Positions 1-11,613 of a stretch of 11,613 nucleotides of DNA are shown here, piece by piece (within the stretch, counting starts at the first letter, position 1; the number at the start of each line of letters is the position of its first letter). The notes beneath the pieces are model-generated. The model ran no database searches and was not told where the DNA came from. It was given only the letters and a program-made list of their open reading frames with translations. The stretch is from Boothiomyces macroporosus (lineage: Eukaryota; Chytridiomycota; Chytridiomycetes; Rhizophydiales; Terramycetaceae), in the NCBI GenBank assembly GCA_027604185.1, contig JADGKB010000208.1, positions 1 to 11,613 on the forward strand, written 5' to 3'. Made by a program: the position numbers and the translations under genes.

Positions 1-22
1 AGCAATACAGAAACTATGGAAA

Positions 23-832
23 TCAAGTTTTTATTTGGCCATCTTTTGTGGTCATATTCGACAATGAATTTGATTTCCTTATAAAGTTGATTTTTAGTTT
101 CGAGCCATACAGAATATTCAAAAAACACAATGGTGGAAGAATGATGAATTCAATTGGTATCAAAACACCTGTTATTGACGGCCAGGTGTTTAGAATGAAT
201 GGAATGTAAATCACTGTTCTTACTAGGCACAATATCAGGGCAAACACTGCTGATGTGAATGCTAGTGATTCTAATCTTTCTGCTCCTTGGCTCTTTACTT
301 GCCGTACGATAGTAAAAACATTGACTGCAAAGTAGATTGCCACGATGCCTATGTAGACTGTATTCATTACAGTTTTCGTTACTGCTTCAGTGGGTGATTC
401 AGAAAATAGGCAAGCACCGTTATACATTCCAGTAACGTAAAAGAACTGGCCAACTATTCTTGGGCCAGCATCTAGCAGTACAAACATGAAAACCCACAGG
501 TACTTCCATCTGACTTCCAGGTACATGACACGTAGAGTAAATATCCAATCTATAATTGCTTCACTAAAGTTTTTTGTAAATCCTTGGAGGTTCCACAAAG
601 CACAAACTTCCACGATTCCTTTATCCACCATATACATTGTAATGATTTGGTTAGTGAGCAATACCACGCCAAACAAAATATGGCACAACCCAATCAGAGT
701 CAGATTTTGCTTTGACCGAAATTGCTTTGCATAATAAATGATTGTAAATATAATGTTTAGAATCGACACGACGAATTCTATTATAGATGCCACGAATTGT
801 GATTCTTTCATTAGAAAGAATAATGCTGTCAT
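23..832 (-). CDS. Seven-helix membrane protein, paralog 1 of 3
   Basis: Predicted 269-residue integral membrane protein, intronless. The start chosen is the ATG at 832. The open frame runs further upstream only through non-ATG codons, and paralog 2 begins at the equivalent point. Seven hydrophobic segments can be traced and align with those of the two neighbours. Shared landmarks are WNLQGFTKNF before helix 3, IDWIFTLRV with a following LE at its inner end, a WPSITG turn before helix 7 and LPPLCFLNILYG in helix 7. A cysteine at the start of helix 3 and one in the loop after helix 4 (NGACLF) are conserved, as in the helix 3/loop 2 disulfide of GPCRs. A receptor-like role is an inference from topology; no named family was recognised. 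AATAAA lies just before the stop (30-35). It is the most downstream member of a same-strand tandem array. Confidence 0.82.
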   Translation of the reverse strand: MTALFFLMKESQFVASIIEFVVSILNIIFTIIYYAKQFRSKQNLTLIGLCHILFGVVLLTNQIITMYMVDKGIVEVCALWNLQGFTKNFSEAIIDWIFTLRVMYLEVRWKYLWVFMFVLLDAGPRIVGQFFYVTGMYNGACLFSESPTEAVTKTVMNTVYIGIVAIYFAVNVFTIVRQVKSQGAERLESLAFTSAVFALILCLVRTVIYIPFILNTWPSITGVLIPIEFIILPPLCFLNILYGSKLKINFIRKSNSLSNMTTKDGQIKT

Positions 833-1040
833 TGTTGAAATTTGAATATCACAAGTAATTGACAGTTTGATTTTCCTCAAATCTTTAGCTTCGCAATAAC
901 CGATATTAAGGAACCACAAAGCAATATCTGAATAGAAATCAGTGATCCTTTGATGGATAGCTGCCTATTGAGAATACACAGATTGTTAAACACCGTTCTA
1001 GGTCCACCAAAGAACAGAGAAAGACTCAGGAATGCCTTGT

Positions 1041-1915
1041 TTAGTGGATTTTATTAGGTTGGCCTTTGGAAACAATCTTTTTTGGCGTTTCGCTCATCAT
1101 GGAACTATTCTTGGTGGTGTCATTTCCGACAACCTTTGAGTTGCTATTCCCACGAACATTAAGTTTCGCCCCAAAGGCAATATTCAGGAAGCACAAGGGT
1201 GGCAAGATACACATTTGTATAGGAACCAGAATCCCAGTTATTGATGGCCAAGAGTTGAGAATATAAGGAATGTAAAATACAGTTCTAGTTACACATAGCA
1301 TTATTGCAAAAAACGTCGAAGTAATTGACAAAGACTCGAATTGCTGTGTGTTGTTTCCTAATCCTTTTATCAATTGATACATTTTGTAAATGAAATACAA
1401 TGCTACAATGGCAATATACACGGTATTCATCACAGTTTTGACTACCCGTGGGGTAGGAGGATCAAAGAGCGTGCATAGTCCTGAATTAAGATTGAATACC
1501 CGAAGGCTGCACAGTAGTTACATACAAGCACAAGGACACAATCCTGGGAATGGCATCAAGAGCGGCAAACAAGAACAGCCAAGTGTACTGAATCCAAGGA
1601 GAACGCTCCAGAAAATAAACGCGAAGTGTGAATATCCAATCAATATTTGCCTCTGCAAAATTCTTTGTAATTCCCTGCATTAAGGATAAATACTTGCAAG
1701 TTCCACGCACCGCAGAATGTTGTAGCGTTTCCATTTAGAATAAGGACATATGTAATGATTTGATTTGCGAGGTAAACTACACCAAACACCATGTGACAGT
1801 AACTGATGATTGTCCATTTGTTTTTCCAATAGTATGGAATCATGATTATTAGGTTTATAATCCCAACAACCAACTCACATACAGTCGCTATATACGTAGG
1901 AGTGATGGCGACCAT
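1041..1915 (-). CDS. Seven-helix membrane protein, paralog 2 of 3, three exons with 19-nt introns
   Basis: Spliced model: exon 1 is 1915-1694, exon 2 is 1674-1500 and exon 3 is 1480-1041. These total 837 nt, giving 278 residues plus stop. Unspliced, the gene reads as three overlapping fragments in different frames. Removing 1675-1693 joins WNLQ to GITKNF, and removing 1481-1499 joins VQPSG to LCTLFDPP. Both joints then align without a gap to the intronless paralogs (WNLQGFTKNF and HSNGICSLLDP). The start is an ATG followed by GTC. Helices, WPSITG, the paired cysteines and the helix 7 motif LPPLCFLNIAFG match the neighbours. The rest of the reading frame is intact, which argues against a pseudogene. 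AATAAA (1050-1055) lies just before the TAA stop. Function is unknown; receptor-like topology is inferred. Confidence 0.8.
1481..1499 (-). other. Ultrashort intron, 19 nt, phase 1
   Basis: On the minus strand it reads GTATTCAATCTTAATTCAG. It is identical to the first intron of the same gene at 15 of 19 positions, including GTATT, CTTAAT and CAG. Removal splits a glycine codon (G|GA) and restores the loop PSGLCTLFDPP, matching NGICSLLDPNG in the paralog. Retention leads to a stop at once. Confidence 0.8.
1675..1693 (-). other. Ultrashort intron, 19 nt, phase 0
   Basis: On the minus strand it reads GTATTTATCCTTAATGCAG. It has GT-AG ends and a CTTAAT branch-like motif four bases before the end. 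Its removal is exactly what is needed to restore WNLQ|GITKNF, which is continuous in the paralogs at 23-832 and 2427-3236. Retention shifts the frame and ends the protein within about 18 codons. Confidence 0.8.
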
Positions 1916-1983
1916 AATAATTTGCAGTTGAGCTGGAAATTCAATAACGTCACAAACAGTGAAATAATGTGCTATTGTTCATC

Positions 1984-2219
1984 TGTGGTATTATAGTTCC
2001 AAGTGTAGTGGTTTAGATTGATTGGCTCTTTGAAAGGGGTAAAAAAACCATACTGTAAATCTGTCCTTTTATTCAGTTTTCCCTTTTGAACAATACAGTA
2101 GGCTCATCATTTAAACTATCGTCTCGCGTGACATCATCAAATGTTGGACGATCGTCAATACGATTCGCAGTAAGATTAGATAACAATCCCAGTAAGATTA
2201 GATAACAATCCACCACTGG
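1984..2219 (-). repeat. Dispersed repeat family 1, copy A
   Basis: About 235 bases that match 6583-6813 over most of their length, with substitutions and small indels. The best conserved blocks are the segment from TATTATAGTT through TTTAGATTGATTGG, the CTTTTATTCAG block and AGTAAGATTAGATAACAATCC. The last block is duplicated in tandem here (2169-2190 and 2191-2212, period 22). The repeat lies between receptor-like paralogs 2 and 3. On the minus strand it holds the 3' end of an open frame, described separately. Confidence 0.8.
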
Positions 2220-2342
2220 GCTCTGGAGAAATTGAGGTTGTATACCGCAACTCGAAAATACAGGAGGAAACGCGTATTGTGGGCATATCAGTACCACGCA
2301 AAGTCTGAACCAAACACATTCCAGCAGTCTTGGAGTTTGCAC
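2073..2342 (-). pseudogene. Fragment of unrecognised repeat-borne gene, copy A
   Basis: Minus-strand coding remnant ending in a TGA whose last base begins an AATAAA signal (2068-2073). The C-terminal reading, with TFDDVTRDDSLN and TVLFKREN, matches the frame of copy B at 6683-6817 (TFDDVTCDGSL, TVLLKKREEKGN). A 22-base tandem duplication (2169-2212) shifts the frame. The original upstream frame seems to continue as RYTTSISPEPSGGLLSNLT, preceded by about 40 more open codons back to a TAA near 2360. The protein is not recognised. Shared coding sense in two diverged copies suggests it once encoded part of a mobile-element or multigene-family protein. Confidence 0.5.
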
Positions 2343-2426
2343 TTACTAGAATACCTCCTTATTTACGAATCTAGGTTGGTTGAGCAAACAAAAATGTAAC
2401 AGCAAAAGATATATTAAGACCGCAGA

Positions 2427-3236
2427 TCACAAGTAGCCTTTCCCTTTCGATACAAAGCTACCAACACTTTGATTCTGAGAGCTGCTTTTACTTTTCGACC
2501 TGGTTGTCAGTGCTCCACGGATTTTCAATTTCGCACCATAAATGATATTGAGGAAGCAGAGAGGTGGTAAGATACAAAGCTGGATAGGAATCAGGATACC
2601 AGTGATGGAAGGCCAGGTATTCAAAATGTATGGAATATAGAATACAGTGCGGGTCAAGCACAGCATCACAGCATACATTCCCGAAGTGAGAGTGAGAGAT
2701 TCCAATTGTTGAGAAGTACCCACTCCGCGTATCACTTGAACCATTCTATAAATAAAGTAGCATGCAACAATACCAATGTAGATGGCATTCATTACAGTCT
2801 TGACAATTCTAGGTCCGTTTGGGTCCAACAAGCTGCAAATACCGTTAGAGTGAATGGTATCTTGGTACAGAAATAGCGAAATTATACGGGGAATCACATC
2901 AAGTGCAGCGTACATTCCGACCCAAAAGTATTGGACGTGCCTGTTTCTTTCGAGGTAGTAAACCCTTAGGGTAAATATCCAGTCAATCCACACTTCTGCC
3001 AGGTTTTTTGTGTACCCTTGCAAGTTTAATAGAAAGCATGATGTAGTCTGATAGTTGATTGATATCAGATACATGGTTACTATTGTATTGGATAGGAAAA
3101 ACAGACCAAATAGAATGTGGTGGTAGCTGATAACAGTAAGAGTACGGTTCCAATAGTACGGAATGTATAGCAATACATTAACAGTTGCGACTACTAGTTC
3201 TGCAACGGCTGCACAGTATGTAGCCACGTCTACCAT
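2427..3236 (-). CDS. Seven-helix membrane protein, paralog 3 of 3
   Basis: Predicted 269-residue intronless membrane protein starting at ATG 3236 (MVDVATYC), the point where it begins to align with paralog 2. An in-frame ATG at 3287 would add 17 hydrophilic residues. Approximate helices: 5-28, 36-60, 67-93, 101-124, 145-166, 182-206 and 211-237, followed by a basic, Ser-rich tail. C67 at the top of helix 3 and C124 in the next external loop are conserved in all three paralogs. IDWIFTLRVYYLER closes helix 3, WPSITG precedes helix 7, and helix 7 carries LPPLCFLNIIYG, loosely like the NPxxY region of GPCRs. This gives the intronless reference for both splice sites of paralog 2. Receptor or transporter function is not shown by sequence alone. 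Confidence 0.83.
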   Translation of the reverse strand: MVDVATYCAAVAELVVATVNVLLYIPYYWNRTLTVISYHHILFGLFFLSNTIVTMYLISINYQTTSCFLLNLQGYTKNLAEVWIDWIFTLRVYYLERNRHVQYFWVGMYAALDVIPRIISLFLYQDTIHSNGICSLLDPNGPRIVKTVMNAIYIGIVACYFIYRMVQVIRGVGTSQQLESLTLTSGMYAVMLCLTRTVFYIPYILNTWPSITGILIPIQLCILPPLCFLNIIYGAKLKIRGALTTRSKSKSSSQNQSVGSFVSKGKGYL

Positions 3237-3314
3237 TGAATTAAATTTTGTTTGAGGGTATAAATACTTGTGATGGTCCCTGACCATCGGAGTCCTTTGG
3301 CTTAATTGGGCCAA

Positions 3315-3860
3315 ACGTGTGGAAGAAACTCCGGAGGTTCACCCAAATGCTGACAGTTGGATGGTCCCCACAAGCGTTCACGTTTAAAACTAGTTGCTGT
3401 AGCGCATATAATGGCTCTATTCCGACATATCAAGGCGCTTTTTTGCGGAATGAATATATATGGAGGTCGAGAAAAGCACATGGCAAATCCCGGTAATTCT
3501 TTTGCAAATGGCACTGGGAATTAATCATCCTCAGCCATTTCTAAATCAATTCAAAATGGGTGGTTTACGGTCAGTGTACCTTTGAGTACACTATGGAATC
3601 CAATGGGCAGCCCAAACTCATTTCTTGATAATTCCACTATTCTGTTACACAAAATTGAAGCAAACAAGGCAAGTTGCAAATGGAATAACATTGGGAAGCA
3701 CAAAATTGGATTGTGCAGAATACAAACAGATTTAACCCCTTATTACCTTTTTGCTCTAGTACTATTGCAAACATCCTTTATCCAGATTTTGATTATATCA
3801 AAAGGTTTCTTTACACAAACTCACAAAATTCACAATGATAAATCAACATAGAAGTCTAAT
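3315..3860. other. Intergenic stretch between the two gene arrays
   Basis: About 550 bases with no supported gene; the open frames here lack plausible starts or recognisable composition. It must hold the promoter of the receptor-like gene (reading left) and the 3' flank of the secreted gene at 3865. The only local structure seen is a 7-bp inverted repeat, AGTGTAC / GTACACT with a 6-base loop (3573-3592). Confidence 0.5.
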
Positions 3861-3863
3861 AGC

Positions 3864-3869
3864 TTTATT
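3864..3869 (-). promoter_or_regulatory. Poly(A) signal AATAAA containing the stop codon
   Basis: The TAA stop of the secreted gene is the centre of AATAAA (CAATAAAGC on the minus strand). AATAAA is the usual cleavage and polyadenylation hexamer. Its placement implies a very short 3' UTR. Confidence 0.6.
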
Positions 3870-4526
3870 GAATGAGTAGCAAAAGAATCCACAGACTGGA
3901 AAAGACAGACACGGCAGAATTTGCAGTTTTCTGTGGTTGCCAATTACAATAGTTGATCAAAGTGTTGATTTCATTCTGTACCGGCCCAGCAACAGTTTGG
4001 TCCAACGATGATAATGGAATGGCAGATACATTAGTGAGCTGCATAGCAACACAGCTAGTGCATACCAATGTCTTTTGATTGAGTAAATCTTGAACTGCCA
4101 GAGTTGTGTTTAACGAAGAAGAAATATGTCCAAGAAAAGTAGGTTTTTGACTAACGAGGCAGTAAGTGCCATTGGCCCGCACACAAGCACCGGCTCTAAT
4201 AATACTAGTTTTTGCTAAATTATAAAGTAAATACCAGCCAACTGCGAAACAGTCATTAGCGAAGAAGTATCAGCAAGCTCACCAGCGCAAGTGGCCGATA
4301 CAGAGCCTACGAAATTGTTGACTGCTGTTTGACACTGGGGGTTGCAAATAGAGTTTAAATTGTCTGTAATTTGTGTAAACAGTGTTTGAACACCATTGGT
4401 GGAAATTGAATTGAGGTCCATGTACTGTCCACATGCATTATCTATTAGCTGTTTGTTTTGGTTGAGAAAGGTACTGCATTCTACGTCCAAAGGTTTGGCA
4501 ACAACGGCAGTCAGAAACAAGAGCAT
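3865..4526 (-). CDS. Secreted ten-cysteine GPI-type protein, paralog 3, with 20-nt intron
   Basis: Spliced model: exon 1 is 4526-4235 and exon 2 is 4214-3865, totalling 642 nt and 213 residues. The start is ATG 4526, which gives a short leader MLLFLTAVVA before KPLDVEC; the frame extends nine bases upstream only to a TTG. Removing 4215-4234 turns two half-proteins into one whose junction, SQLAAKTSIIRAGAC, aligns without gap to GQLAAVALIARTGAC and SQLVGIANIAQAGLC in the neighbours. All ten cysteines of the family are then present in order. N-glycosylation sequons occur, and the C-terminus is a hydrophobic tail (WILLLLIQ) typical of GPI attachment signals. The TAA stop sits inside an AATAAA. 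Likely cell-surface or wall protein; the family is not named with certainty. Confidence 0.82.
4215..4234 (-). other. Ultrashort intron, 20 nt, phase 1
   Basis: On the minus strand it reads GTATTTACTTTATAATTTAG. It has GT-AG ends, the same GTATT start as the introns at 1675 and 1481, and a TATAAT motif just before the acceptor. Removal gives a G|CA alanine codon and an ungapped alignment with both intronless paralogs. Retention ends the protein within six codons. Confidence 0.82.
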
Positions 4527-4611
4527 TTTGGACAACTTTTTGACTGGCGAAGCTGAAAGCCCCAGTTCCCTTGAAATGTTATCTAAAAAAGAGTGTAAAA
4601 AATTCTATGTA

Positions 4612-5238
4612 TTAAAGGAATAAAGACATTAAAATGTAGATTGCAGTGGGGTCAACTCTAAATGCACTGCTCTTGGTCGGGGTGGTTGAATTACTGCCAG
4701 TGTTTTGAATATTTGTGAATCCACAAAAATCAACAATTGATTTGGTAGCCTGATACAGCGGACCGGTTACGGATGCATCCATATTTGACAGCGGGAGCGC
4801 GTCAATGGCTTGGATTTGCTTCAGTGTGCAGTTGGTGCAAGTAAAGGTCTTGTTTGACATAATATAGCTTGAAGTTTCATTCAGAGACTTGCTTGGCAGT
4901 TCTGCAATTTGTTGTGGAAGACAGAATTGATCGTTATTTTGAACACAAGCACCTGTGCGAGCAATTAGGGCCACGGCTGCCAGTTGGCCAATTGTATAAC
5001 CAGATGCAGTATCGGCAACATTATTAGAGCAATTTCCCATTTGTTGAAAGTTGCCGATAGCTTCTCCACAAGGCTGTTGACAAACAGCTGCCAAGTTGTT
5101 GGCTGTTTGTTGCAAGAGATAGAGTGGTCCGAATCCTGAAATGACATTTAAATCCAAGGAGCTACCGCAGTTTGACAGTATCGCCGATTTTTGATTTGAC
5201 AAGTATGTTTGGCAGTAACCAGTTAGTGGTTCAGACAT
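4612..5238 (-). CDS. Secreted-family ten-cysteine protein, paralog 2, start uncertain
   Basis: The middle member of the array keeps all ten cysteines, the internal TIGQLAAVALIARTGAC region without intron, sequons, and a C-terminal hydrophobic tail (AIYILMSLFL) after a Ser/Thr-rich linker, consistent with GPI attachment. The coordinate given uses the first in-frame ATG (5238), which leaves only MSEPLTGYC before the first cysteine and no leader. The frame is open upstream to a TAA near 5339. There, SLVLQFQSV resembles the leader SLVVSSVLA of paralog 1, but the position of the expected ATG reads ATT. An ATG at 5309 is out of frame and meets TAG after five codons. So the start may be non-ATG, supplied by unseen splicing, or lost. 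Confidence 0.68.
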   Translation of the reverse strand: MSEPLTGYCQTYLSNQKSAILSNCGSSLDLNVISGFGPLYLLQQTANNLAAVCQQPCGEAIGNFQQMGNCSNNVADTASGYTIGQLAAVALIARTGACVQNNDQFCLPQQIAELPSKSLNETSSYIMSNKTFTCTNCTLKQIQAIDALPLSNMDASVTGPLYQATKSIVDFCGFTNIQNTGSNSTTPTKSSAFRVDPTAIYILMSLFL

Positions 5239-5332
5239 TACACTTTGAAATTGTAAAACAAGGGATTTAATACCTTGGAGGCGCTGGAGGGCTAGTTGGC
5301 GGCGATCATGAAACAATAAAAAGAAATATATT

Positions 5333-5998
5333 TTAAATTAATAGGAAAAATGAAAGAGCCAGTCCAGAGGCAATTTCATAAGCAGCTGCACCGCTCTTTG
5401 CTGTAGCTTGTGCTGCTCCAATAGTAAATTGACAAAGGGAAGAAATTTGGTCAAATCCGTTTCGAATTGGTGTCACAAGGGATGTATCCAAAGAACTGAG
5501 AGGGATAGCAATCACAGCAGAAATTTCTGCGCTCGTACAATTGTTACACAAAGCCTGTTTGTTACCCAATACAGCAGCTAATGCGTCGGAAGCATTTTTT
5601 CCTGCAATAATTGGAGCAAGTGTCGATACTTGAGATTGGATACAATAATTGTTTGTGTTTGGGTCTTTGGCACACAAACCAGCTTGGGCTATATTTGCGA
5701 TACCAACCAACTGACTGATTGTAAGCCCAGTAGATACATCTGCAACTTGAGATGTGCAATTTCCAAAATTAGTAGAGAGATCCTTTACTGCTTGGAGGCA
5801 TTGAGGGGTACAAATAGAAGTAAGTTGTGGGGCAGTTTGAGAAGCAATTGTCCCAATAGTATTTTCTGAAAGTGAATTTAAATCCAAATACTGTCCACAG
5901 TTGGTGACGATGTTTGCCTTTTGGCTGGATAAAACGGACTGACAGGGAACAGTGAGCGAGTCTGCAAGAACGCTAGACACAACCAAGCTTAGCAACAT
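5333..5998 (-). CDS. Secreted ten-cysteine GPI-type protein, paralog 1
   Basis: Complete, intronless, 221 residues, starting at ATG 5998. A leader of about 12 residues (MLLSLVVSSVLA) is followed by DSLTVPC. Cysteines are at 19, 34, 63, 67, 81, 109, 119, 151, 154 and 189, the same set as in the two neighbours, suggesting a disulfide-bonded fold. Shared motifs are CGQYLDLNS, ADVSTGLTISQL, a CNNC pair and IPLSSLD. The last 25 residues go from a small-residue region (KSGAAAYE) to a hydrophobic tail (LALSFFLLI), the layout of a GPI signal. Likely anchored at the plasma membrane or linked to the wall. It resembles small fungal cysteine-rich GPI proteins in layout; the exact family is not assigned. 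Upstream is a T/A tract (about 6004-6020). Confidence 0.85.
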   Translation of the reverse strand: MLLSLVVSSVLADSLTVPCQSVLSSQKANIVTNCGQYLDLNSLSENTIGTIASQTAPQLTSICTPQCLQAVKDLSTNFGNCTSQVADVSTGLTISQLVGIANIAQAGLCAKDPNTNNYCIQSQVSTLAPIIAGKNASDALAAVLGNKQALCNNCTSAEISAVIAIPLSSLDTSLVTPIRNGFDQISSLCQFTIGAAQATAKSGAAAYEIASGLALSFFLLI

Positions 5999-6039
5999 TT
6001 TCTCTTTTTTTTTAAAAAAAACGCACTTTTAACTCCATT

Positions 6040-6270
6040 GGCTTGGTTGTTTGAGCCCACATGAAACGAAACATCACAACCACAATCGGGGCCATTGTCT
6101 AAACGCTTGTTGGTGTAGAGGGATCAAGGAATTATCAAAGCTATTTCATCTGTCAAGTTGGCTTAGAGAGCACCACTATGGAAACCTCTACATTGTGAGA
6201 CCACTATGGAAACCTCTACATTGTCAGACAACTTGAGGATACACTAGGAAATATTCAAAAAGTCGAGTTA
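6040..6270. other. Non-genic stretch upstream of the secreted array
   Basis: No gene supported. It contains a short tandem repeat (6173-6224) enclosed by an 8-bp inverted repeat, TCAAGTTG near 6153 and CAACTTGA near 6229. It probably includes the promoter of the gene that starts at 5998, since that gene is read leftward. Confidence 0.4.
6173..6224. repeat. Tandem duplication, period 28
   Basis: CCACTATGGAAACCTCTACA plus TTGT occurs at 6173-6196 and again, identical, at 6201-6224, separated by GAGA. The perfect identity indicates a recent duplication. Confidence 0.9.
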
Positions 6271-6273
6271 TAA

Positions 6274-6622
6274 ATGTTCAAAGTTAAACGTTGCTGTTAT
6301 AGTCCACCTTTCGGTAATGTGCTCAAAGAAAGTGTATCAAATAGTCCCGCGTTATCAGAAAGTATATTTTTCGTGATGACGTCCAAGATACGAAAATGGT
6401 TTGTACGTGATGAAAACAAGATGAAGATAACAGAACGCAAGATTCCTGTGACTGCTTTCATGAACAGTGGGAAGATGCTTCAAAAGATAAGCATAGGCTA
6501 GAATAGGATAAAGAGGATATTAATTGGCCTCAAGGATACACTGAAGGAAGATCTGGATGAGAATTGTCTCAAAGCCTTTCCATGTGGATATTATAGTTCT
6601 ATGTGTAGTGGTTTAGATTGAT
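6274..6622 (+). pseudogene. Unrecognised open stretch with one in-frame stop
   Basis: A plus-strand frame from ATG 6274 is open for 75 codons to a TAG at 6499-6501. It then continues in the same frame through LIGLKDTLKEDLDENC to a TGA within repeat copy B. The charged, low-bias composition looks coding, but no family was recognised. It could be a decayed mobile-element gene or a chance frame. Confidence 0.25.
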
Positions 6623-6813
6623 TGGTTCTTTGAATGAAAATGGGTAAAGACAATTAGACTAAACTGTGAATCTGTCTTTTATTCAGTTTCCTTTTTCTTC
6701 TCTCTTTTTTAACAACACAGTAAAGTCTAAACTACCGTCACACGTGACATCATCGAATGTTACGCGACCTTTGCTATGATTCACAGTAAGATTAGATAAC
6801 AATCCATCAGTGG
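6583..6813 (-). repeat. Dispersed repeat family 1, copy B
   Basis: Diverged second copy of 1984-2219, in the same orientation and without the 22-base duplication. The shared order of blocks (TATTATAGTT, TTTAGATTGATTGG, CTTTTATTCAG, ACATCATC, AGTAAGATTAGATAACAATCC) makes homology clear. Weaker similarity may reach about 6850. Confidence 0.8.
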
Positions 6814-6817
6814 ACAT
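6683..6817 (-). pseudogene. Fragment of unrecognised repeat-borne gene, copy B
   Basis: Minus-strand frame of 44 codons from ATG 6817 to a TGA, which again overlaps AATAAA. It shares GLLSNLT, TFDDVT and a Lys/Arg/Glu-rich end with copy A. The frame is kept although the DNA differs and has indels, so the ancestor was probably coding. The ATG may be accidental, as copy A continues upstream. Confidence 0.45.
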
Positions 6818-6882
6818 TTAAATTGGAAGGGATACAATTGGAAAATCACTTTGGATAAAAAGACAATTCATAATAAATTGAA

Positions 6883-7086
6883 ATGAGGACGAAATATTAT
6901 GGATTTATTCTGGATACAGATTATGTGGAAGGCTATATGGCAAAAGGCGGAATAGGATGATTCAAACGGGTATTGAAGTCAAAGAAATTAACCCTTGAGG
7001 TACAGAAAAGGAACAGGAAAAAATTCACAAATGCTCAGAGGGAAATTAAATTCCCACAACATAAAATAAAGATATTTTTACTGTAA
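6883..7086 (+). pseudogene. Unrecognised open stretch with one in-frame stop
   Basis: From ATG 6883 the frame reads KYYGFILDTDYVEGY, meets TGA at 6958-6960, then continues with a Lys/Arg-rich segment to TAA at 7084-7086. The composition is protein-like but no family was recognised. It lies between repeat copy B and the piggyBac remains, so a decayed transposon gene is the likeliest origin. Confidence 0.2.
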
Positions 7087-7352
7087 TTCAGTTTATTTTG
7101 CATTTATTTATGGCATTACCTTTATTACTCAATATGATTCAATCCTGTTTGGACGACCTTCAAACTTGAAAAGATTGAAATATAAAGTTTATTTAATCGA
7201 TATATCCTGTGTAAGAATTTGAAGGAAATGAGCACTTGATATTCTCTACTATGCAATCTGGTAATCTTTGACGATATCGATATCTTTGAGCAAAACCGAT
7301 ACATTTCAAATCGTTTTTCATTTGCTAAATCATTCTTGGCGATTAGAAGGTT
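7087..7352. other. Stretch without a supported gene
   Basis: A minus-strand frame of 94 codons (7125-7409) occurs here with no recognisable motif. It is AT-rich and adjoins the piggyBac remains. Nothing else is seen. Confidence 0.35.
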
Positions 7353-7422
7353 ATGAGTATCACTGTCTGTAAAACAGAATGATAACTCTTTTCGACAAGC
7401 ACGTTTCATTTTTTTTCAAAAA

Positions 7423-7987
7423 TTGCGATACTTGTTTGGTTTTCAATTTGAAGATTGCTTGCACACTCACTCACGTCTAGAATGCGATCTGTGCGGCGAA
7501 GTATTTTGTCACCAACATTTTACTTCTTTACAACGTTGCATTTCATGCATTGAGATTGATGATACTGACTTGGAATTGTCTGATATTGCGGAAGAGGGTG
7601 AATACTCAGGACCATAATGAAGTAGCAGAGTTTGTATGCCCAGCTACCTTTCAACCAAAGTCCAAGTACAAAAAACAAATTCCAAAGGAAAAGGCCCAAT
7701 TTGTTGAATCAATTTGGAATGAATCTAAAACTTTTGAACATAAAGGATTCGCATTCACTGGCCCTTGCCCTGGACCAACTACTACTGCAATAACTCCTTA
7801 CGACATTTTTCACACCAGAAATGGTAGGTTTGATACCAATTTATACATGAAGACCGAAAGATACATTGCGAAGATGCACAATAAAGAAATACGATTTGGC
7901 AGTGTCACAAGTGAAGATATTTCCAGCTATATTATTATTTTGCTCTTGAAATCTATGCACCACAAGCCTCAAGTAAAATTAAACTGA
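7423..7987 (+). pseudogene. piggyBac transposase, N-terminal part
   Basis: Acidic N-terminal stretch (DDTDLELSDIAEEGEYS) in one frame, then in the next frame FTGPCPGP, ITPYDIF, a TNLY-like motif and a hydrophobic segment ending in KSMHHKP. This is the usual order in the N-terminal half of piggyBac transposases (DDE_Tnp_1_7 type). The two frames switch near 7598-7622, either a frameshift or a 25-nt intron. There is no ATG in the first frame, which is open upstream to about 7353. A Cys/His cluster (CDLCGEVFCHQHF) precedes the acidic part and is not explained by the family's N-terminus. Translation stops at TGA 7985, before the rest of the domain. Confidence 0.65.
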
Positions 7988-8021
7988 TCCAATTCGTCAT
8001 ACTCCAATTTTTGGAATAGTC

Positions 8022-8254
8022 TAAAACAAGATTATGTGATTTAGAAGATGAATTAGCGCGCATAATAAAGTAGTTTTGAATTGTTTTGAACTGTTCTTTA
8101 GCTGTGTTTTTATTAGATTAATAACAGTATTTATAGCAAGTTCCCTTGAACAACATTAAAGGCTTAAGTAAAGAGCCCTTGTTCTATGTTAGTAAACTGA
8201 CAATGACTCGTGAGTAGTATTTGTTTCAACACTTATCAGGTGTTGTTTCCAACA
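8022..8254. repeat. Dispersed repeat family 2, copy 1
   Basis: About 233 bases closely matching 8942-9154 in direct orientation, from TAAAACAAG to GTTGTTTCCAACA. Copy 2 lacks about 20 bases within the AT-rich part. Both copies end in a hairpin, CAACAC-7 nt-GTGTTG, in which the stem is kept while the loop differs. In the plus sense both read KGLSKEPLFYVS, TMTRE, stop, YLFQHL, similar to the segment expected after HHKP in piggyBac proteins. In the minus sense copy 1 includes the last codons of the Myb-like remnant. Confidence 0.85.
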
Positions 8255-8589
8255 TTATTCTCATTCTGTTTTCATCAGGTTCATGATTATCAAAGAAGTT
8301 TTCCAATTCCCATTCCTGCTCGTCGATTAAGTGATCTATACTTTCACCTGTTGAAACTAAAGTAGGATTAACATTCTGCCTTTCCCCAAACAATTCATCC
8401 ATCTCTTGAAAGTAAGCACAAGCCTTTTCAAGCTTTTCCTCAATAGTCTTTACACCATTCATTCGATCCTTTTCAGTTACCCCGTAACCAGTTTGAATAG
8501 TCTTTGTTCGTGTCCATGTAGGAATTTCTGTATGATGCATAACGAGCCTTGATACTTTGCTTTGGCCAGTCCTTACAAATGTGGAGGGG
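8226..8589 (-). pseudogene. Myb/SANT-like (trihelix) DNA-binding protein remnant
   Basis: The upstream frame (about 8589-8505) reads KDWPKQSIKARYASYRNSY, like the end of a Myb/SANT-type domain. A frameshift near 8500 leads into TIQTGYGVTEKDR, then EKACAYFQEMDELFGERQNV, the helix and linker that commonly follow such domains, and an acidic tail to TGA at 8226. Proteins of this kind accompany PIF/Harbinger transposases in many eukaryotes, and Harbinger remains lie on the same strand at 9819-10561. The N-terminal part of the domain is missing. It lies antisense between two parts of the piggyBac remnant. Confidence 0.5.
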
Positions 8590-8614
8590 ACATCATTCTT
8601 TACGACGGTGATTG

Positions 8615-8928
8615 ATGCTTAATACTAGATATATTACGAATAAAGCGGTGTTTGAAATGTACTGCATTGCTGAATTAACCACTGGTTACGTCAAACGGTG
8701 TTTGATTGAGAAAGGCAGTGCCGCAAAATACTGTACGGACAAGCTAAAGCAGCAGTTACATTGATGGAGGAAGCAGGAATAATGGATAGTGGACATTTAC
8801 TTGCCGTTGACAATCTGTATACCGACTGGTATCTATTTTTAGAACTATTTAGAAGGAAAACGGATACGATTGGAACAGTTAGAAAAAACAGACGAGACTT
8901 CCCCAAATCAATAATGAATATGGAATAA
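8615..8928 (+). pseudogene. piggyBac transposase, central part
   Basis: Two frames joined by a shift near 8740. The first reads NKAVFEMYCIAELTTGYV, matching the segment with the TGY motif. The second reads GHLLAVDNLYTDWYLF and then GTVRKNRRDFP, the hallmark DNxYT...GTVRxNRxxxP region of piggyBac proteins; the aspartate of VDN is the second catalytic residue. The preceding part with the first catalytic Asp is absent, its place being taken by the Myb-like fragment. A TAA at 8926 ends the frame just before repeat copy 2. Confidence 0.75.
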
Positions 8929-8941
8929 AACAATTTGGGAT

Positions 8942-9154
8942 TAAAACAAGGTTATGTGATTTAGAAGATAAATTGGCACGCATAATAAAGTAGTTTTAAA
9001 TTATTATTATATTAAATTAATAGCAGTATTTATAGCAAGTTCCCTTGAATAACATTAAAGGCTTAAGTAAAGAGCCTTTGTTCTATGTTAGTCAACTGAC
9101 AATGACTCGTGAGTAGTATTTGTTTCAACACCTATAATGTGTTGTTTCCAACAG
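8942..9154. repeat. Dispersed repeat family 2, copy 2
   Basis: Direct copy of 8022-8254 that separates the central and C-terminal piggyBac parts. It begins at a TTAA (8941-8944), the target site used by piggyBac-type elements, though copy 1 has CTAA there. The copies are about 920 bases apart. Only the right boundary is sharp; left of the repeat a weak CAATTT similarity continues. Confidence 0.85.
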
Positions 9155-9717
9155 AGATTATGGGAGCGAATTCAGTGGCAAAAATTAACAGACCATTTAC
9201 ATTTATCAACTGGTTGGATAAAAAACCAGTAATGATTCTTGGATCTGTTACAAACTTGGACAAAGTTAATGAAAAACCTGCATGCGTAAGGCTTTACAAT
9301 GAATGTACGCCTCAAACAATCAAATGAAAGCTGGAAGAAAAATAGGAAGATTAAGCATCAAGAAGTATTATATTATTTCACCATTTGTTGGATACAATTT
9401 TGCTCAATAGTTTTATTTCATACAAACAAATCCCTGGAGTTACGATCATATCCCACCAAACCTTTCGTGAATTACTAGTCAAGGAAATGATACGTAAATA
9501 CACTAGTGTCAATTTGAATAGTCTTGATCTTCCAAACCCTTCAACTGAAACGGAGTGTATTCCTGAGGTATCCAATTATTCCAGGTATTGTGCTTATTGC
9601 TCTCTTGGATCTGATAGAATTCGCTATCCAAACGTTGGTGATGATGGAAAAGATAAGAGAAAAAAGAGTGTTGTAGTGTCTTTGTTCCAAAAAGCACTAC
9701 TGCTTGATCAAAGGTAG
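9155..9717 (+). pseudogene. piggyBac transposase, C-terminal part
   Basis: One frame throughout, broken by TGA (9325), TAG and TAA within 30 bases. It reads FTFINWLDKKPVMILGS (the W-x-DKKPV block of the family), then VRLYNE, then FHHLLDTILLNSFISYK and TFRELLVKEMI. It ends in the start of a C-terminal cysteine-rich domain (YCAYCS), whose remainder (CLCSKKHYC) is in another frame. The GGVDxxDQ block with the third catalytic Asp, expected after VRLYNE, is missing. The element is therefore inactive. Confidence 0.75.
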
Positions 9718-9818
9718 AAATTGTTTGTTACTGAAATGATTAAAATTGATTTCTTAACACTTAAATTTTGTATTTGACTGAGTTTCTGTAATTATATATT
9801 AACTTTTGATTATGGATG

Positions 9819-10046
9819 CTAAATGATAGGGTTAGTTGATTTCTCTGTATTCTTTTCATTTAAGGGAAACATTGGCTTAAGAAATCTATTTTTCAACCAC
9901 CCAAATGCAGTTTCAACAATCATTCGCTTGGATGATAGTATGTAATTGAATCGTATTTCATAGACTGATAGCTCTCATTTCTCATGTGGCATAAAAGGAA
10001 ATACCAAAGATTGAGTCAGACCAAAACCTGAATCACTAAGATACAA
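9819..10046 (-). pseudogene. PIF/Harbinger transposase remnant, C-terminal core
   Basis: The minus-strand frame reads YLSDSGFGLTQSLVFPF, one TGA, FNYILSSKRMIVETAFGWLK and NRF, to a TAG at 9819. This is the DDE_Tnp_4 pattern: an Asp in the DSGY-like block, then the catalytic Glu in R-x-x-VE-x-AFG-x-LK-x-RF. The upstream part with the other catalytic Asp was not found. It could form one element with the Myb-like remnant further left. Confidence 0.75.
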
Positions 10047-10049
10047 AAA

Positions 10050-10429
10050 AAGGATTGGTTGCAATTGCTAATATTCCTCAACACTCACAGCAAAAGAGTG
10101 CGATTGATGTGGTAAATTTGCTCTAGGAAAGGAATAATGAAATTGTAAATATGATATCCAATATGAAAAATGATTTATACCGGAAATCATATACCACTAT
10201 CATAGTTTTTAACAGATTTAAAATACTTTGCAAAATCGACAATAAATCCAATTCCAATATCAAATATATTAATTTTAGAACATTTCACACATCAAAAGTT
10301 GTCTTACTATGATTCCTCTAGCTCGTCTAACATGGCATACTTTGTCTTTGATATTTTGCATCAATATTGATTGAGTATCATCTATAATTTCAACATCTCT
10401 AACCTCAAAACTTTTATCTTTCAAATCTA
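10050..10429. other. Stretch without a supported gene
   Basis: AT-rich sequence between the two Harbinger pieces. No motif was recognised on either strand. It may be decayed internal Harbinger sequence, but nothing in it shows that. Confidence 0.4.
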
Positions 10430-10561
10430 TCAAGATAGTATAAGACTGTTCATGCGCCTAAGACAACAACACTTTGGCGAATGGTTCTTTCGCTTAATTA
10501 AGCATTCGAATGCTGTTTCTACACACATTCTTTTCGATGAAATCCGAGTATTAAATATTTG
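10430..10561 (-). pseudogene. Second PIF/Harbinger transposase fragment
   Basis: The minus-strand frame reads FNTRISSKRMCVETAFECLI, then KRKN, to a TGA. It is clearly the same block as FNYILSSKRMIVETAFGWLK at 9819-10046, so two different copies lie about 500 bases apart. Only the region around the catalytic Glu remains. It abuts LINE-derived sequence on its upstream side. Confidence 0.65.
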
Positions 10562-10596
10562 AACGCTCTTTACAAATAGGTGAATATATCATATCC

Positions 10597-10992
10597 CTAA
10601 TCACCGAAAAGATGATTGTATATTTGGACTATTTCTTGGACTTGATTTTCAAAGGGGATCCATCGGAGAGCATTAAGATTTGCTCGGTTCAATAAGGACT
10701 GGAGCAGTGAGTTTTGAGTCACTGCTTTGCTGTATAAAGTGGAAGCAGTGTGAGTTCGGATTTGAGCTTGGACCAGAGTGGTAGCTGGAAAGTCTTGGAC
10801 TTGAGGATCGTTATTGATGAAGGGAGCAAAGAAACAAGTGGAGAGATAGTTGTTTCACTGAGATACAGTTTCTAATACACACAGTTTGTGCATTGCTGCA
10901 ATGGAAGTGCTTCTGCTAGCGCCAAGGATTATCCTGAGTGCTAGATTCTGAGACTTGTCGTGAGCAATGTCTATATACAAACGCAATTCATT
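10597..10992 (-). pseudogene. LINE (non-LTR retrotransposon) ORF2 C-terminal fragment
   Basis: The minus-strand frame is 132 codons with a single internal TGA (10855-10857). It contains SQNLALRIILGASRSTSIAA, the motif (Q-x-x-ALRIILG, then ST-x-IAAL-like) found just after the reverse transcriptase core of fungal LINEs. A long tail ends in ALRWIPFENQVQ. The polymerase core itself (YADD-type motif) is not in the window. The sequence upstream on this strand is Copia-derived, so the fragment is truncated by another element. Confidence 0.65.
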
Positions 10993-11011
10993 TCACAATC
11001 TTAATTTCCAT

Positions 11012-11100
11012 CTAATGATTTAAGTACTCACCAGTGTATTCTGTCTTTGGTTCACTCATATGCTTAATAAGCTCAGTAGTTGAACCAGAATCCTAGAGGA
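11012..11100 (-). pseudogene. Copia-type retroelement protease fragment
   Basis: The minus-strand frame reads IIL, TAG, then DSGSTTELIKHMSEPK to a TAG at 11012. D-S-G followed by S/T-T at the start of a short domain after a gag zinc knuckle is the layout of the retroviral-like aspartic protease in Ty1/Copia polyproteins. It lies in a different frame from the gag part, so the polyprotein is broken. Confidence 0.5.
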
Positions 11101-11192
11101 TTATTGTTCAGCTCCTTTATTGAAATCTGCAACTTTTGAATTTCTATTCCAAGTAAACTGATCACCAATTCGACAACGGTCACTCACATAAT

Positions 11193-11613
11193 TCAATAGC
11201 GGTTGTATTTCCTGCAGTAGTCGCACATCATTTTAAGAGAATTGTTTGCGTTGGCTGAATGTGCTAGCGCCTTCCGTTGAAATTCTTGACGTTCTACAAT
11301 TGCAGTGACATTGTAATGTTCCAGCAAATTTGATCTTAAAGTTGTGAAGTGAGATCTGTTCATCTTTTCAGATTGGAGATTGCCGATTGACTTATGAGTA
11401 GAGACGATAACCTCCCGGTAAAAGCGCTGATGGACATGTTCCAATACTGTTTCAATTTGGTCAGCATAGGAAATCATGCCACCACAAGCCAAAAGATGTG
11501 CATACCTCTTGTTGTATTCTTTCCAAAAGGAAGTGAGGTCAATGCCATCCATTTTTACAGCCTTGAGATCTCTTTTAGCTGAATAAAAATCGGTGGATCC
11601 GAATTCTTCTTCT
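11193..11613 (-). pseudogene. Copia-type gag, partial, open at the right edge
   Basis: The minus-strand frame is open to the end of the window and stops with TGA at 11193. FWKEYNKRYAHLLACGGMIS followed by ADQIETVLEHV resembles the UBN2/gag region of Ty1/Copia elements (a central segment with a conserved L-x-x-G then a spaced leucine-rich part). The C-terminus CDYCRKYN is the first half of a CCHC zinc knuckle. The second half (YVSDRC) is in another frame that runs to a TAA at 11101. An ATG at 11552 is internal, because coding sense continues upstream of it. Confidence 0.6.

Follow-up and report, generated by a model that had tools for sequence, protein, structure and literature searches.

How short can the introns of an ordinary fungal nucleus be? 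The question is raised by a stretch of 11,613 nucleotides (nt) from the chytrid Boothiomyces macroporosus (Chytridiomycota, Rhizophydiales, Terramycetaceae; contig JADGKB010000208.1, positions 1 to 11,613, the whole of which is called the window here), in which two genes on the minus strand are interrupted by segments of 19, 19 and 20 nt. Judged from the DNA, these three segments are almost certainly introns, and we hold with very high confidence that they belong to a set of ordinary U2-type spliceosomal introns of about 19–22 nt found throughout the B. macroporosus genome. Such lengths are near the lower extreme reported for any organism. The source is a fungus, as an initial annotation had supposed, and the GT-AG segments that this annotation had placed in these genes are all present, as follows:

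1675–1693, minus strand: predicted intron 1 of the middle membrane-protein gene, GTATTTATCCTTAATGCAG, 19 nt, GT-AG, phase 0, predicted branch A at nt 14
1481–1499, minus strand: predicted intron 2 of the middle membrane-protein gene, GTATTCAATCTTAATTCAG, 19 nt, GT-AG, predicted branch A at nt 14
4215–4234, minus strand: predicted intron of the cysteine-rich (Cys-rich) secreted-type gene, GTATTTACTTTATAATTTAG, 20 nt, GT-AG
1041–1915, minus strand: middle multi-pass membrane-protein gene, exons 1694–1915, 1500–1674 and 1041–1480; topology judged by eye
3865–4526, minus strand: Cys-rich protein gene, exons 4235–4526 and 3865–4214; signal-like start judged by eye

As had been claimed, the segments would truncate the protein if kept: retaining GTATTTATCCTTAATGCAG, GTATTCAATCTTAATTCAG or GTATTTACTTTATAATTTAG puts translation out of frame, and a stop follows about 17, 3 and 6 codons after the respective donor. 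Once they are spliced out, both genes are open to their ends. The three segments obtained splice-site matrix scores of 5.91 (1675–1693), 4.12 (1481–1499) and 3.53 (4215–4234), to be read against the quartiles of 3.21, 4.59 and 5.87 among the predicted introns used as reference; the window lay outside the training set.

Spliced products compared with related proteins

The product of the spliced middle gene aligned with P0003 from Boothiomyces sp. JEL0838 at 98% identity over 248 residues, and the spliced Cys-rich protein with P0131 from Boothiomyces sp. JEL0866 at 83% identity over 212 residues, in both cases with 0 gaps. Moreover, the spliced Cys-rich protein corresponds to part of P0130, a public B. 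macroporosus model, with all 213 residues identical. Note that the conservation of introns in relatives was judged from protein alignments alone. A gapless fit had originally been claimed for the nearby paralogs without introns; this holds for the orthologs P0003 and P0131 but not for the paralogs, whose alignments contain 1–10 gap positions. The paralogs concerned are these:

23–919, minus strand: paralog of the middle gene, no intron at either site; true start uncertain
2427–3314, minus strand: paralog of the middle gene, no intron at either site; true start uncertain
4612–5316, minus strand: paralog of the Cys-rich gene without an intron at the 4215 site; true 5' end uncertain
5333–5998, minus strand: paralog of the Cys-rich gene without an intron at the 4215 site

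The spliced middle gene is 60% identical to the 2427–3314 paralog, with 1 gap position in 242, and 49% identical to the 23–919 paralog, with 10 gap positions in 259, while the spliced 4215 gene is 34% and 35% identical to its two paralogs, with 7 gap positions each. The gaps in these alignments are small and none falls exactly at an intron site; in the 23–919 alignment, a one-residue gap lies two residues upstream of the site of intron 2.

Homology was also examined outside the window, by comparing four of the six printed multi-intron proteins with PDB entries. The gene for the PKA catalytic subunit, predicted to contain four introns (20, 19, 19 and 20 nt), gave a product that aligned without gaps to PKA-C alpha over residues 27–321 (295 residues), and PDB alignments were also obtained for Rae1 (2 introns), SSF1/PPAN (3) and a lipoate-protein ligase (3). 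Of the 12 splice junctions, 9 are deep in ungapped blocks as we counted them on the printed alignments; the other three (both in Rae1 and the last of the ligase) are 1–5 residues from a one- or two-residue gap.

Predicted introns of 19–22 nt across the genome

The assembly (G000) comprises 15,203,306 bases in 216 contigs; all 268 residues of P0007, annotated as a B. macroporosus protein, are encoded exactly on its contig C22. From the assembly a non-random sample of 200 kilobases (kb) was taken, made up of twenty 10-kb pieces lying on 19 large contigs (bases 20,001–30,000 of C1–C19, and 30,001–40,000 of C1). A genome-wide length peak near 19–20 nt had been named beforehand as the test on which the proposal could fail, and a strong peak was found. 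It was seen in four ways: with motif pairs, with a motif-blind gene finder, with a motif-guided gene finder and with a pattern run over the whole genome.

Motif pairs, defined as GTA with TAA[CT]N{1,3}AG and counted by distance, numbered 72, 72, 48 and 20 at 19, 20, 21 and 22 nt, respectively, against a background of 7–12 per length at 12–18 nt and 4–17 per length at 23–59 nt (Poisson tail for 72 vs 11.5, 5e-33). At least 30 open codons were present on both sides of 71, 78, 63 and 55% of the pairs at 19, 20, 21 and 22 nt, compared to 10, 19, 24 and 19% at the control lengths of 16–17, 23–26, 30–39 and 40–59 nt; for the seven 18-nt pairs the figure was 57%.

The motif-blind finder was a Viterbi procedure with a flat score for every GT-AG gap of 12–300 nt. 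It placed 42 of its 98 introns at 19–22 nt, the remaining 56 being spread over 13–261 nt with at most 3 per length. A GTA start, although only GT was required, was present in 36/42 of the introns of 19–22 nt and in 21/56 of the other gaps, and a strict TAAY..AG end in 25/42 and 14/56, respectively; perhaps in some of these other gaps the acceptor is genuine and the donor is not. These are second-pass figures, the first pass having given 100 introns, 51 of them of 19–22 nt. An earlier codon-only finder (40 genes and 26 introns, 15 of 19–22 nt) was too weak and was replaced. The whole-genome pattern, GTATTN{5,30}TTAATNCAG, gave 131 matches vs 8 in the backward control. Among the 100 matches listed, 30 were of 19 nt and 26 of 20 nt, and the other 44 were distributed over 22 lengths, with 1–6 each.

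Finally, the motif-guided finder predicted 185 introns in 103 gene models, at a coding-sequence density of about 1.3 per kb, and found them in 19 of the 20 sampled pieces; L024 has no intron in the guided model despite its motif pairs. All 184 short introns in this set are distinct in sequence, and 182 of them would break the frame or bring in a stop if kept. In-frame stops occur in 33 of the 35 introns of 21 nt, vs 27.0 expected over three frames, an excess that we do not press as evidence because 21-mers lacking a stop can be read by a gene finder as coding sequence. Extrapolation from 184 per 200 kb suggests roughly 14,000 such introns genome-wide. The length peak is narrow, as in other genomes with ultra-short introns, and extends to 22 nt, the share of longer introns being loosely bounded.

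Splice sites and predicted branch point

The initial annotation had proposed motifs shared by the three segments, a GTATTYA start and a TAAT before the acceptor. The first is not the general donor: the 200-kb sample shows a weak donor that is GTAAT- or GTATT-like, i.e. (A)AG/GUAAUU or GUAUUU. At the place of the second the sample has a branch-like motif, yUNAy (yTNAy in DNA). Among the guided introns, for which the search required GT-AG, A was found at +3 in 90% and at +4 in 61%, and G or A at -1 in 80%; T was present at +5 in 43%, a position that then pairs poorly with U1, and at +6 in 64%. Taken as a whole, the donor is complementary to U1. A T-N-A motif occurs near the 3' end of 182 of the 184 predicted introns, mostly as TTAAT, CTAAT or TTAAC, a count that is partly circular, since an acceptor matrix was built into the guided finder. 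The branch A assigned from this motif stands at nt 14–15 in 159 of the 182, and 5–6 nt short of the intron's 3' end in 162.

Spliceosomal RNAs and proteins

An altered U1 or U6 fitting the odd donor, with its T at +5, was expected but not found, both RNAs being canonical. Two U2 genes and one U6 gene were above the Rfam cut-off, and U1 scored 68.8 bits, just below the gathering score of 69.5 (E value 1e-15). The start of U1 (AUACUUACCUG), a stretch within U2 (GUGUAGUAUC) and another within U6 (UACAGAGAAG) all match the Rfam consensus. The two U2 small nuclear RNA (snRNA) genes (L041 and L042) are divergent, with an identical branch-recognition sequence.

The idea that U2AF65 or SF1 had been lost was wrong, as both are present. 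SF1-HH, Methyltransf_10, Yju2, Isy1 and Cwc25 were above their Pfam cut-offs. In a six-frame search the U2AF large-subunit model reached 230.7 bits, below its cut-off of 310.3, and proteins named U2AF large subunit were among the matches listed for the spliced U2AF65 protein. The Methyltransf_10 match is of the METTL16 type, in a family that also has bacterial members. The presence of METTL16 fits the frequent A at +4 (61%), a preference that is reported for Saccharomycotina (PMC10581693). The N-terminus of Yju2 is MAERKVLNKYIPP; that of Cwc25, beginning MGGGDLNLKKSW / MGGGDLNLKKSWHPNTYKN, keeps the glycine plug (GGG). Cwc25 has another, equally scoring match on C100, and the Isy1 match is on C39.

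Short introns are also predicted in genes of this machinery. The U2AF65 gene has four of 19–20 nt, and the Cwc25 gene (L050, C49:3190–3800) one of 21 nt that holds three in-frame stops. A further gene (L046, on C177), whose product combines an RNA-binding domain with an RS-like tail and resembles RBMX2/Ist3, has an intron of 20 nt.

Points against and alternative explanations

Several points weigh against a genome-wide set of such introns. In the 200-kb sample, plain GT..AG pairs taken without the branch motif gave no clear peak, as expected because this pair is so frequent. The whole-genome pattern is unable to match anything shorter than 19 nt. Among its listed matches, the 44 outside 19–20 nt outnumber the backward control; this excess may represent true acceptors meeting chance donors, and some longer introns may exist in the genome. 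The 56 of 98 motif-blind gaps with other lengths are taken as errors, which is not demonstrable one by one. The motif-guided lengths (51, 82, 35, 13 and 3 introns at 19–23 nt, and one of 108 nt) do not form an independent table, since that finder penalises lengths outside 15–26 nt. Moreover, the gene finders were home-made and missed many genes, and the position of the branch A is a motif assignment, not a mapped one. Finally, both intron-bearing genes of the window were missed by the motif-guided finder at its threshold, and therefore their models rest on homology. In the window this finder called 4 genes, all intronless, and also missed 23–919 and 2427–3314.

Among the alternatives, the one that survives best, very unlikely as we judge it, is that each segment is part of a longer intron and coincides with it at one end. 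This is what some public gene models imply: P0010, the public U2AF65 model, lacks 11 residues (GMFLLPCHLLK) beside the first 19-nt intron, and P0002 and P0009 seem, by eye, to end longer introns at the acceptors of the window introns. However, the 11 residues are retained in the 19-nt splice model and have counterparts in P0011 from Globomyces and P0012 from Kappamyces. P0130, P0131 and P0003 fit the short splices exactly, and the PKA gene is gapless with its four short introns. At the other three introns P0010 agrees with our own splice model of U2AF65, and at least four of the introns are already spliced in public B. macroporosus models, one in P0130 and three in P0010. As a separate observation, P0002, P0009, P0010 and P0130 indicate that some public models of these chytrids run tandem genes together or leave out conserved residues at the sites of tiny introns.

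Even less probable is a non-spliceosomal removal of the segments, whether by ribosomal bypassing, DNA elimination or endonuclease-ligase excision. Two points speak for such a route: the formation of so small a lariat seems sterically difficult, and the case is known here from DNA alone. Yet the GT-AG ends, the branch motif in a fixed place and the canonical U1, U2 and U6 are what a spliceosome needs, and the motif is able to pair with U2 GUAGUA; we know of no other removal route that would preserve the GT-AG ends, the branch motif and canonical snRNAs. As for assembly errors or the decay of duplicate genes, the window genes do occur twice in the assembly, on C208 and C161, both small contigs, but this explanation is scarcely credible given such introns in 19 of 20 sampled pieces on large contigs, all 184 different in sequence, and interrupted genes that give conserved spliced products.

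How spliceosomal introns of this size could be recognised

If the segments are spliceosomal introns, each would be read as one unit of fixed length. U1 would pair with the donor and U2 GUAGUA with yUNAy, leaving few nt between the donor and branch helices; because the U1 and U2 helices would nearly touch, we propose a quick hand-over of the donor from U1 to the ACAGAG box of U6. Branching would then produce a lariat loop of 14–15 nt, and the AG 5–6 nt past the branch A would be used as acceptor. U2AF65 is kept though no polypyrimidine tract fits past the branch site, and it may bind the U-rich middle of the intron or act via protein contacts.

Comparison with known ultra-short introns

Chlorarachniophyte nucleomorphs and ciliates, the comparators chosen at the outset, were well chosen, and mikrocytids should be added to them (PMC10245619). 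The chlorarachniophyte nucleomorph has introns of 18–21 nt, more than 800 in about 300 genes (PMC10245619), and so resembles Boothiomyces in having many introns in nearly the same narrow length range. However, it is the remnant nucleus of an endosymbiont, whereas Boothiomyces has a 15.2-Mb fungal genome. Mikrocytos mackini, with 224 introns in total of 16–17 nt (PMC10245619), is alike in that its introns are numerous and uniform in length; it differs in being a parasite with a highly reduced spliceosome, whereas Boothiomyces encodes SF1, U2AF65, a METTL16-type protein, Yju2, Isy1 and Cwc25.

The heterotrich ciliate Stentor coeruleus has introns of 15–16 nt (PMC9505925). It shares with Boothiomyces the GU-AG ends, a GUAAUUU-type donor in its commonest intron, a fixed branch A and conserved recognition sequences in U2 and U6. 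The tail past the branch A is also similar, 5 nt in Stentor (PMC9505925) and 5–6 nt in Boothiomyces. By contrast, the branch A is at nt 10–11 in Stentor (PMC9505925) and is predicted at nt 14–15 in Boothiomyces, and the branch motif, yUNAy in Boothiomyces, has no strong consensus in Stentor; the two organisms belong to different kingdoms. Stentor lacks the glycine motif of Cwc25, a loss that its authors tentatively tie to the tight lariat (PMC9505925), whereas Boothiomyces keeps the motif with a predicted loop about 4–5 nt longer. Therefore, loss of this motif is not required for introns of the size predicted here.

Among fungi, Cryptococcus neoformans is intron-rich, as is Boothiomyces, but has introns three times longer, with a mean of 63 nt (PMC8476143). 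In the excerpts of that study, which covers 644 genomes, no species is mentioned whose introns are close to 20 nt (PMC8476143). Full-text searches of an open-licence library, in which subscription journals are mostly absent, and excerpts of PMC8476143, PMC10639083, PMC5364385 and PMC10245619 turned up no fungus, chytrid or other, described as having introns of about this length. Note that a pan-eukaryotic intron survey excluded introns below 30 bp in all species (PMC10639083).

Implications

The introns described here would extend a very rare, already known type of intron to a new lineage; priority is not established. We lean towards the view that in Terramycetaceae (Boothiomyces and Terramyces), and perhaps more widely in Rhizophydiales, introns collapsed to about 20 nt in a full-sized, intron-rich nucleus with a standard spliceosome, in which SF1, U2AF65, METTL16, Yju2 and the Cwc25 plug are kept. 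If true, tiny lariats would form without special branching factors, which goes against the steric avoidance put forward for Stentor, and earlier surveys would have overlooked such introns through filtering or mis-modelling. The retained Cwc25 plug weakens the case for altered branching factors as a requirement for tiny lariats. Moreover, an opisthokont case with canonical U1, U2 and U6 would allow the question of how short an intron an ordinary spliceosome can handle to be addressed in a relative of the model fungi. Provided that B. macroporosus is a free-living saprobe, the shrinkage of introns would be separated from parasitism and from organelle reduction. On the practical side, some public models of these chytrids drop conserved residues or fuse neighbours near tiny introns.

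Other features of the window

A Pfam scan of 7 window frames gave no match at the cut-off. Of the two paralogs of the middle gene, one had a CD225 match below the cut-off and the other had none. The membrane-protein genes of window positions 1–5300 recur on C161 (about 3370–6631), the copy of 2427–3314 being 100% identical and the others giving equal or near-equal scores; this second copy reflects either uncollapsed haplotypes or a recent duplication. A further paralog of this membrane-protein family, on C22 (L009 and L010), has a 20-nt intron of its own, GTAATTTATCTTGACACTAG.

Elsewhere in the window, positions 7423–9717 contain broken open frames that resemble a PiggyBac-type transposase and its zinc-binding tail, with no Pfam match for the two frames tested; by eye, a stretch near 7990–8160 is repeated near 8940–9150. 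Finally, the stretches at 1981–2200 and 6590–6800, outside the genes described, look alike by eye, both contain gtagtggtttagattgattgg, and are possibly the remains of a repeat.

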